A DNA stretch of 36,714 nucleotides, from positions 1 to 36,714 of the forward strand of contig JAAXHO010000298.1 in the NCBI GenBank assembly GCA_012270795.1, read 5' to 3'. The DNA comes from Candidatus Poribacteria bacterium. Its GTDB lineage: Bacteria; Poribacteria; WGA-4E; WGA-3G. Of the stretch, positions 21,380-26,486 are shown piece after piece. The notes below the pieces were generated by a model that was not told the origin of the DNA, made no database searches, and was given only the letters and a program-made list of their open reading frames with translations. The translations under genes and the position numbers were made by a program. Position 1 is the first letter of the stretch. Every line of letters begins with the position of its first letter.

Positions 21380-21530
21380 AACCCAAGTTGCTACCTATTA
21401 TTTGTTGGAGGGGTTTCTAACCCCGATTGAAAACAAAAAAACAGAAAAACAACGAATGCTGATGCGAATTGTCATAAATCGAGGTTAGAAACCCCTCCAA
21501 CAAGAGTATTCTAAAGTAGGTGGCAACTTA
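21380..21530. repeat. Family-A palindromic element (second copy)
   Basis: Opposite orientation to 550-703 and alignable end to end, including the loop region around AACAACGAATGCTGATGCGA. It starts six bases after the Gfo/Idh stop codon and touches the next element. Confidence 0.85.
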
Positions 21531-23750: not shown

Positions 23751-23832
23751 ATCGTTGGAGGGGTTTCTAAACCAGATTTAACGAACACACAATCGTTGGA
23801 AGGATTTCTAAACCAGATTTAACGAACACACA
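23751..23832 (+). repeat. Two 41-bp direct repeats derived from the GTTGGAGGGG core
   Basis: Unit 23751-23791 (starting ATCGTTGGAGGGGTTTCTAA) is repeated at 23792-23832 with two changes. The motif is the family-A core, here as a tandem direct repeat instead of an inverted pair. It lies between two convergent genes. Confidence 0.75.
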
Positions 23833-23838
23833 ATATAC

Positions 23839-24333
23839 TCAATAGTGACTGGAATCATCATCTGCAATTGAAAGTCCCATCGCATCTGCAATCATCTGTA
23901 ACGCAGGTTGTAAAAGATCACCTTTTCTTTTGATATTATCAGATGGGGCGTTGCCAAGATTGTGATTTAGATCTTCTAATGGGGATAAACCGAAATTTTC
24001 CATTCCTTCAAGCATCCCCGCAAGATATCCATGGGATGGTAATTCTAAATCTCTGACATCAGCGTGCATCCTATAGTACATAATGTCTTTCTTGTAGTAT
24101 TTGCCATATAGGTGGGGAAATGCTTCATAACTATCAAGTACTTTCTCATCTCCTTCTGAAATTTCCCAAAGACCCCCTTTCACAGACTTTCCCTCAACAG
24201 GAATAATATCTGCATAATACCGAAAAACTAACTGAAATCCTTCCAGTGTAAACTCACCTAAAGGGTCAGCATCCTGACACCGCCACGTCATCTGTTTTAT
24301 ATTAAGATTTGATCCATAAGCAAAGTATTTCAT
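23839..24333 (-). CDS. Gamma-glutamylcyclotransferase-like (AIG2/GGCT fold) protein
   Basis: 164 residues from ATG at 24331-24333; a TTG nine bases upstream is the only alternative, and neither has a clear ribosome site. The signature YFAYGSNL (3-10) and the catalytic-position glutamate Glu70 in DSYEAFPHLY match the GGCT fold. Family members cyclise gamma-glutamyl amines, peptides or glutathione fragments to 5-oxoproline. The true substrate is not evident. The C-terminal third (about 110-164) is extra helical sequence. Same strand as the two lipoproteins upstream, but separated by about 93 bases from the extended end of the nearer one. Confidence 0.8.
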   Translation of the reverse strand: MKYFAYGSNLNIKQMTWRCQDADPLGEFTLEGFQLVFRYYADIIPVEGKSVKGGLWEISEGDEKVLDSYEAFPHLYGKYYKKDIMYYRMHADVRDLELPSHGYLAGMLEGMENFGLSPLEDLNHNLGNAPSDNIKRKGDLLQPALQMIADAMGLSIADDDSSHY

Positions 24334-24426
24334 AGCCGGCAATATGGAATTTTAAAGTCAGTTTCCAGCAAAAATAATTCCTAAATAGAAATAAAATTAA
24401 CTGGAAACTGAGTATCTAATGTTCAT

Positions 24427-24585
24427 CTAAAACAGTAACGCATCAACTTGATGTTCCTGGGGAGCATCAATCGGATCATCTTCGGTTTTGCTTACAGTCT
24501 TATACCCAAACAGTTCAATTTCACTAATTTTAGCAGCTGCGCGAACACGGATGGGCCCTCCAGGCCCACAACCTGCAGGACCTCA
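24427..24585 (-). other. In-frame continuation of the lipoprotein gene past an internal UGA
   Basis: The UGA at 24583-24585 is followed, in the same frame and without any indel, by 51 sense codons to a UAG at 24427-24429. The continuation starts GPAGCGPGGPIRVR and includes AAKISEIELFGYK, which aligns with PAKIGEIGIYGYK in the paralogue at 25241-25906. This is the last strand of the discoidin-like domain. The first 50 bases after UGA are about 70% G+C, against a much lower value around them. It could be a recoded (selenocysteine) codon or a recent nonsense mutation. Confidence 0.7.
24552..24568 (-). promoter_or_regulatory. SECIS-like hairpin just downstream of the internal UGA
   Basis: In the transcript UGGGCC, loop UGGAG, GGCCCA form a 6-bp stem with the apical loop 21-25 bases after the UGA and a G at the second loop position. 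Published descriptions of bacterial SECIS elements (short stem, small loop with an early G, loop roughly 16-37 bases after UGA) would accept this. It was seen by eye; folding was not computed. Confidence 0.45.
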
Positions 24586-25116
24586 GCTAGAACCGCTTTG
24601 TGAGGAGAGAAGTGATTTTGAAATGTCACGTGCCGTTTCTCTACGAGTCAATGCCCCATCATCCGTAGTACCTAATATCACAAGACGAATTTTATCTGTA
24701 GGATATGCATATAAGACAGGAACAACAATCGGACCAGATTTGACACTTTTTTCTTCCTTAATCAATTGCCAGTCCGTTTTTGACAAGGCACTCCCGCCCT
24801 TGTCCGCATAAATGTTAAATTTCTTTATGTTGTCCGAATGTATTACAATACGACGTATGACTTTTTTCTCAGGCAAAGTAATAATGACTTCAGGTGAAGA
24901 ACTGGGGTTACCTACACGATTTCCGGATGTATCTGAGGAACCAGTTGTACCAACCGTGTTTAAATCACCATCTGTCATTTGGATATTTGTTGAATGAACA
25001 CCGTCAAGAAGCGCATAATTTTCGCTCCATTCCTGCTGTGATAACAAGGCACTACAGCCTGCAGTTAGCACACAAAAACAGAAAAGGAGCATGAGTAAAA
25101 CAAATCTATTATTCAT
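24583..25116 (-). CDS. Discoidin-like lipoprotein, paralogue 1 (up to the internal UGA)
   Basis: 177 residues to the first stop, 229 if the UGA is read. Type II signal peptide with Cys21 in VLTAGC. The mature part is a beta-sandwich like F5/8 type C modules: a WSENYALLDGV opening, MTDGDLNTVG, VIITLPEKKVIRRIVIHSDN, FNIYADKGG, DWQLIKE, IRLVILGTTDDGALTRRE. About half its positions match the lipoprotein at 25241-25906. The closing strand AKISEIELFGYK lies beyond the UGA. Without it the fold would probably be incomplete. The ATG follows TTGGAGAAA. No function is assigned; likely an anchored ligand- or glycan-binding protein. Confidence 0.8.
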   Translation of the reverse strand: MNNRFVLLMLLFCFCVLTAGCSALLSQQEWSENYALLDGVHSTNIQMTDGDLNTVGTTGSSDTSGNRVGNPSSSPEVIITLPEKKVIRRIVIHSDNIKKFNIYADKGGSALSKTDWQLIKEEKSVKSGPIVVPVLYAYPTDKIRLVILGTTDDGALTRRETARDISKSLLSSQSGSS

Positions 25117-25240: not shown

Positions 25241-25906
25241 TCAATTTGACCCAAGAATCCCATCAAGTTCCTCTTCACGTTTGTTTTCTGAATCAGGCGC
25301 GCCATCTGTTTTAGGCTTGTATCCATAAATCCCAATTTCACCAATTTTTGCTGGATAATTCCTGCGGAATCCTCTGTTGCTGAAATTCCCCATAAATTGT
25401 CTATCTCTTGTTGAAGTTTGTTGGTAGAACTCAGCATTTTCTTTCCGTCGTAGAATCCCATCGTCTGTAGTGTCAGAAACAACAATCCTTAAATGGTCAA
25501 TAGGATGCACATGTAAAATTGGTATCACTATTGGTGATTCTTTTATACCTCTTACCTCCTTTAAAACCTGCCAATCTGTAGCAGACAAAGCCGTACCGCC
25601 TTTATCAGCATAGATAACTAACTTTTTGATATTATCAGAATGTATAACAATTTTACGAATACTCTTTTTTTCTGGCAACTTGATCGAAACGCCCGTTCCC
25701 CACCCAGAAAACCTTTGATTACTTAAATACTGTGTTTCACCGACTGTTGCAATGTCACCATCTATCATCTGTGGACTCGTTGAGACGACTCCATTCAAAA
25801 GCGCGTAGTTTTCACTCCATTCCTGTTCAGTCAGCAACCCCTGACAACCGATCGAAAATATAATAAAAGCAAGAAATAACTGGCTTAAAATGAATCGTTT
25901 GAGCAT
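25241..25906 (-). CDS. Discoidin-like lipoprotein, paralogue 2
   Basis: 221 residues. Type II signal peptide with Cys21 in IFSIGC. It has the same module as its neighbour: WSENYALLNGV, MIDGDIATVG, IKLPEKKSIRKIVIHSDN, LVIYADKGG, DWQVLKE, LRIVVSDTTDDGILRRKE, and the closing strand AKIGEIGIYGYK, followed by a charged tail. No cysteine or internal stop in the region matching the UGA of paralogue 1. The ATG follows AAAGGAG. It probably forms one transcript with paralogue 1, 124 bases downstream. Tandem duplication with later divergence is the simple reading. Confidence 0.82.
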   Translation of the reverse strand: MLKRFILSQLFLAFIIFSIGCQGLLTEQEWSENYALLNGVVSTSPQMIDGDIATVGETQYLSNQRFSGWGTGVSIKLPEKKSIRKIVIHSDNIKKLVIYADKGGTALSATDWQVLKEVRGIKESPIVIPILHVHPIDHLRIVVSDTTDDGILRRKENAEFYQQTSTRDRQFMGNFSNRGFRRNYPAKIGEIGIYGYKPKTDGAPDSENKREEELDGILGSN

Positions 25907-26172
25907 TGTTAAACTCCTTTGTAAAAACCAACTTGAAATTGGTACATATTTCTGAAATCTGTTCTAAGGTAGATGGGTTAATGTACAGAACCTATTGTCC
26001 TATCCAATAAATTGCTCTTTGAATGTATATGCAAACAGTATATCAAATTTATACTCTTTTTTCCATATCTTTTAAGGGTTATGCAGTTTTAAGAATTCTT
26101 AGTAATTTATGATAAATATTGGTTTAGGTTCTAAATTGGTAAATACAAACCTTTTTGTAGTATCCACGCTTT

Positions 26173-26319
26173 TGTCTGAACCAGGATTTACAGGATTACC
26201 AGATTACCAGGATTTTCCTCATCAAATCCTATTTCATAAAGGAACGTAAACGTACATCAAAAGTCCTTGATGTGGTAAATCCTGGTAATCTGGTAATCCT
26301 GCAAATCCTGGTTCAGACA
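26173..26319. repeat. GTCTGAACC hairpin element
   Basis: Ends TGTCTGAACCAGGATTTACA and its near complement, with a long imperfect stem of GGATTACCAG-type repeats. Copies at 7814-7951 and 34656-34784. The left family-D end was not found here, so the shell is degenerate. Confidence 0.8.
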
Positions 26320-26486
26320 AAAGAAATATCAAACCGACAATAAACAAACAAATCTATTAACGGATATTAACATATTTTCCTAAAATGCCAAAAAATAAAT
26401 ATCCCTTATCCTCATCAAAACATTTTATTATAGATATCTTTTCCGCGAATTCCGAGATTCCATACACACCCCTTTTGAATATCATT

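Follow-up and report, generated by a model that had tools for sequence, protein, structure and literature searches.

Does the in-frame UGA in an exported lipoprotein gene of Candidatus Poribacteria end translation, or is it read as selenocysteine (Sec)? The gene lies within the 36,714-nt stretch of DNA analysed here (the window), and close homologues of the window are found in Candidatus Poribacteria MAGs. Reading the sequence alone had shown a frame that stays open beyond the UGA, and this was confirmed: 51 sense codons separate the UGA from the TAG that closes the frame (Table 1). Because the UGA is conserved, the frame downstream of it is under selection, a covarying hairpin resembling that of selD follows it and Sec machinery is encoded, we conclude with a probability of about 0.93 that this gene encodes a genuine selenoprotein, the first of a new family, with Sec inserted at the UGA. 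Judged from these sequence features, Sec insertion itself is very likely.

Table 1 Features of the candidate Sec-lipoprotein locus (window coordinates).
Feature	Position	Strand	Remarks
Sec-lipoprotein gene with UGA read through (229 aa; stop TAG at 24427-24429)	24427-25116	-	
In-frame UGA, probable Sec codon (residue 178)	24583-24585	-	UGA in 17/17 orthologues
Apical hairpin, bSECIS-like (GUGGGCC-UGGAG-GGCCCAU; 20 nt from UGA to loop start)	24551-24569	-	
Predicted signal peptide and lipobox LTAGC (putative lipidated Cys21 at 25054-25056)	25054-25116	-	From sequence; G20-C21 invariant
Conserved last strand KISEIELFGYK (residues 196-206), 3' of the UGA	24499-24531	-	Completes the predicted beta-sandwich
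Neighbouring UGA-free paralogue (221 aa, without Cys past the lipobox)	25241-25906	-	
Downstream neighbour, gamma-glutamyl cyclotransferase (GGACT/AIG2-like)	23839-24342	-	Gene order kept at most Sec-gene loci

Conservation of the UGA was surveyed across 85 genomes of the phylum, 18 of which make up the genus of the window. Together, 15 of the 18 genus genomes hold 17 genes with exactly one in-frame TGA at the equivalent place; all 17 are confined to this genus, in which G003, G007 and G017 lack such a gene. The codon at this site is UGA in every case (TAA or TAG in 0/17), and sense codons follow it as the sequence-only reading had proposed, whereas at their actual ends these genes use TAG (10 genes) or TAA (7 genes) and never TGA. 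The continuation past the UGA is conserved, ending in AKI[RS]EIE[IL][YF]GY, and neither frameshifts nor other stops occur in any of the 17 genes, which form one clade (support 99/95). As the same UGA is present in independent MAGs, an assembly or sequencing error was ruled out. Purifying selection was judged in sufficiently divergent pairs only, and in these dN is well below dS both downstream and upstream of the UGA; in the downstream part, dN is 0.056 versus a dS of 0.474 for L001/L006, and 0.103 versus 0.795 for L010/L014. (In the alignment used for dN/dS, the row for L132 is one column off at the UGA, which is present in L132's own translation.) The conservation across 17 genes and the purifying selection downstream agree with the earlier view that the frame is intact across the stop and not simply decaying. 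That view had named two observations as fatal to recoding, a genome devoid of Sec machinery, and close relatives with a sense codon other than Cys at this site or with frameshifts past the UGA; instead, the machinery is present (see below) and the relatives keep the UGA and the open frame after it.

Sec insertion in bacteria depends on a hairpin in the mRNA, for which the bSECIS model places a G in the first two loop positions and the loop 16-37 nt from the UGA (PMC13188914). We scored hairpins with an apical loop of 3-9 nt, a stem of at least 4 bp, a G in loop positions 1-2 and a loop 16-37 nt after the UGA. All 17 genes have a hairpin 3' of the UGA, with the loop starting after 17, 20 or 23 nt, and it shows these properties clearly in 16 of them and weakly in L018 (G006:C61). 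There, a 5-bp stem of mostly wobble pairs carries the loop AGGUG as elsewhere, possibly as a deviating bSECIS or in early decay. For the window gene, a count gave 70% G+C in the 50 nt 3' of the UGA, in agreement with the earlier figure, and the TGGGCC/GGCCCA stem, which closes the loop UGGAG at +21 to +25, is present, extended by flanking pairs. Apical loops among the UGA genes read UGGAG, UGGAU, CGGUG, AGGUG/AGGU or AGUUC, and stems vary between GUGGGCC/GGCCCAU in the window gene, GUGGGAC/GUCCCAC in L006 and UGGCGGC/GCCGUCG in L010, with positions 2 (AU/GC/CG/GU) and 4 (GC/AU/CG/GU) of the stem changing in a compensatory manner. The proposal that the segment folds like a bSECIS is thus supported by a hairpin conserved with compensating stem pairs. 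Compared with random synonymous recodings, hairpin stability is higher in most lineages (p=0.001-0.04). Fisher's combination over eight lineage representatives gives 6.5e-7 at loop distances of 16-24, a range chosen after seeing the data; with the published range of 16-37, p is 0.01-0.04 in several lineages. UGA-free paralogues have no such hairpin in the equivalent loop, except for one with a hairpin at +36, and Rfam returned no match at the UGA. Matching elements occur in selD genes of the phylum, which encode a Sec-type SelD and have a UGA themselves: that of the window's own genome carries the hairpin GCUC-CGGGU-GAGC at +16, and that of genus g8 carries AGUCC-AGUU-GGACU at +17.

The four components associated with recoding in the sequence-only reading (selA, selB, selC and selD) were recovered in part from the window's own genome. 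A tRNA-Sec with anticodon UCA (78.5 bits) directly adjoins a full-length SelB (TIGR00475, 353 bits versus a cut-off of 242), and SelD (TIGR00476) is itself of the Sec type, with an in-frame UGA. SelA was not found in the own assembly (5.18 Mb, 298 contigs, 95% complete) but is present in 15 of the 17 congeners, the two genomes that lack it being 81% and 73% complete. The initial search for SelA in the own genome had raised the possibility that Sec machinery is missing altogether, which the tRNA-Sec, SelB and SelD rule out. The selA region of G013 is absent from the own assembly, flanks included. Because the flanks are missing too, this points to a gap rather than gene loss, although loss of the whole region is possible. 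A precise loss of selA was rejected, since the flanks orthologous to those in G013 are equally absent and the match on C289 (68-70% identity) appears to belong to a paralogous cluster.

In the mechanism that we propose, SelB bound to Sec-tRNA(UCA) would recognise the hairpin 17-23 nt downstream of the UGA, Sec would be inserted and translation would continue for 51 codons to the UAG. The product would be exported and held by a lipid anchor, its single domain being a beta-sandwich like those of CBM32 and discoidin. By eye, the alignment shows a signal peptide and lipobox, with an invariant G-C after the hydrophobic segment. The AF2 model has moderate confidence (pLDDT 65.5), falling below 50 in the loop at 178-186, and its top Foldseek matches have the CBM32/discoidin/F5-8 type C fold (E 4e-5 to 1e-3). 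The single-domain matches reach a target-normalised TM of about 0.4-0.5, and the best in the PDB are 2xqx (the CBM32 of EndoD), the muskelin discoidin domain, APC10/Doc1 and 3nng. CBM32 and F5-8 type C sequence profiles gave no significant match, and one member has a weak match to Pfam F5_F8_type_C_2. In the model, Sec178 is placed in a flexible loop of low confidence that precedes the last strand (197-206). This strand is encoded after the UGA, and therefore a stop at the UGA would leave the predicted domain incomplete.

The surroundings of the predicted Sec were inspected for a redox partner. Most members share the motif [GS]S[TSI]U in a glycine-rich loop. A Cys had been placed six positions past the UGA in the window gene as a possible partner; its actual position is +5, and a fixed Sec-Cys pair is not conserved. 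A nearby Cys is present in 14 of the 17 UGA genes at shifting positions (+1, +5, -6 or -8) and absent from L015, L018 and L132, and no conserved UxxC or CxxU motif was found among the UGA genes. In the aligned proteins, a classical UxxC redox pair is made less likely by the missing fixed partner, and the nearby Cys may serve as an optional partner of Sec in most members. Sec might act at the cell surface as an exposed nucleophile or as a group reactive with soft metals or oxidants; an exposed selenol could reduce oxidants, bind soft metals or form selenenylsulfides.

UGA-free paralogues bear on the origin of the Sec codon. The segment around the UGA had been described as absent from the adjacent paralogue and hence as inserted, which did not cleanly hold: at the same place the paralogue carries a loop similar in length but not homologous, so we replaced insertion by a diverged loop. 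Close full-length paralogues contain no internal TGA, and no Cys beyond the lipobox was present in any of the 28 UGA-free paralogues examined; no Cys-containing homologue of the Sec-lipoprotein was found. Because these 28 paralogues lack Cys after the lipobox, substitution of Sec for an ancestral Cys is unsupported. Since the Sec genes form one clade and the paralogues are without Cys, Sec seems to have been gained once, with no Cys ancestor. Tentatively, and at somewhat less than even odds, we picture this single gain as having occurred on a non-enzymatic surface-binding fold of these sponge symbionts, where Sec, the sole thiol-like group in some members, acts alone, perhaps as a covalent tether exposed to the outside or a soft-metal/oxidant trap, and not in a thioredoxin-type redox pair. 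Separately, in L035 (JAJEBZ010000013.1, Candidatus Poribacteria) and G013:C207, a UGA-free paralogue stands between two tandem Sec-lipoprotein genes, and the second Sec copy carries three Cys, not one, downstream of its Sec.

Most selenoproteins have Cys homologues or a conserved Cys partner. Here the lack of either speaks against the Sec reading, as do the SelA missing from the own assembly, the weak L018 hairpin and the moderate confidence of the AF2 model. With no Cys homologue and no fixed Cys partner, residues other than Sec come into question, and a selenium-free programmed read-through might be envisaged, in which a near-cognate tRNA (e.g. tRNA-Trp) decodes a leaky UGA under stimulation by the hairpin, yielding the lipoprotein in a short and a long form. 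Among stop codons UGA is the leakiest, and hairpins can stimulate read-through. However, the genus has Sec machinery and its own UGA-containing selD, and the hairpin's distance, early loop G and loop types match those of selD and the bSECIS model (PMC13188914), which makes selenium-free decoding unlikely. Considerably less probable still is genuine termination at the UGA, with the short form as main product and the downstream frame reached only by ribosome bypassing (hopping) or other recoding. In-phase resumption after a variable segment would also be expected from bypassing, but no matched take-off and landing codons are evident by eye, the variable segment stays in codon phase, with the loop at +17, +20 or +23, and reads as Gly/Thr/Pro-rich coding sequence, and Sec accounts for all features with no extra assumptions. 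Decay of the gene, with the UGA truncating the protein and the open frame a relic, could be imagined from the interrupted frame and the adjoining functional paralogues, but has a negligible probability given the same UGA in 17 genes of a deeply diverged clade, free of frameshifts and other stops and under purifying selection past the stop.

As a probable selenoprotein, the lipoprotein resembles formate dehydrogenase, SelD and other products of the SelB/bSECIS system in its in-frame UGA, its early-loop-G hairpin at 16-37 nt and the accompanying SelB, tRNA-Sec and SelD. With SelD of the same genomes it shares UGA recoding and hairpin geometry (selD loops CGGGU and AGUU), although the two proteins are unrelated and Sec is catalytic in SelD. 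The predicted fold is like that of CBM32 and F5-8 type C (discoidin) domains, from which the lipoprotein differs by the lack of a significant sequence match and by a probable Sec in the loop that leads into the last strand. It differs from catalogued bacterial selenoproteins in that no Cys homologues were found and no UxxC/CxxU motif is conserved. A 2026 catalogue holds 119 prokaryotic selenoprotein families and subfamilies (PMC13188914 Table 1), none of which matches the lipoprotein or a CBM32/discoidin-like fold by listed name or domain; NCBIfam gave no match above cut-off, and Pfam likewise has no model that fits the family. The lipoprotein would thus represent an uncatalogued selenoprotein family, and since no Cys homologues were found, homology searches that rely on Cys/Sec pairs would overlook it. 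Its existence suggests that a beta-sandwich lipoprotein can acquire Sec de novo in bacteria. In Poribacteria genomes, such genes will be mis-annotated as truncated. Poribacteria and selenocysteine are rarely named together in the open-access literature. Enrichment of SelA/SelB in sponge symbionts is described in part of one report (PMC5649159), where the client proteins are not named; the Sec-lipoprotein may bear on the enrichment described there.

Gene order around the locus was also compared. Most Sec loci retain the order with the GGACT gene, mostly together with a gene for an Mrp-type ATPase; this order also persists where the Sec gene is absent. The window further contains two kinds of repeats. 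At 26169-26323 there is a 57-nt inverted repeat (95% complementary, 41-nt spacer), whose 23-nt core AGGATTACCAGATTACCAGGATT has 45 copies in the genome at up to one mismatch, versus 0 for the control; it is a dispersed palindromic element, REP/MITE-like. A match of this repeat to Rfam mir-3938 is below cut-off and probably spurious. A second, dispersed intergenic repeat, GGGTTTCTAA[AC]CC[AC]GATTTA, occurs at 590-672, 21411-21494 and 23761-23821, its six window copies (expected 0) forming two inverted pairs and one tandem pair.
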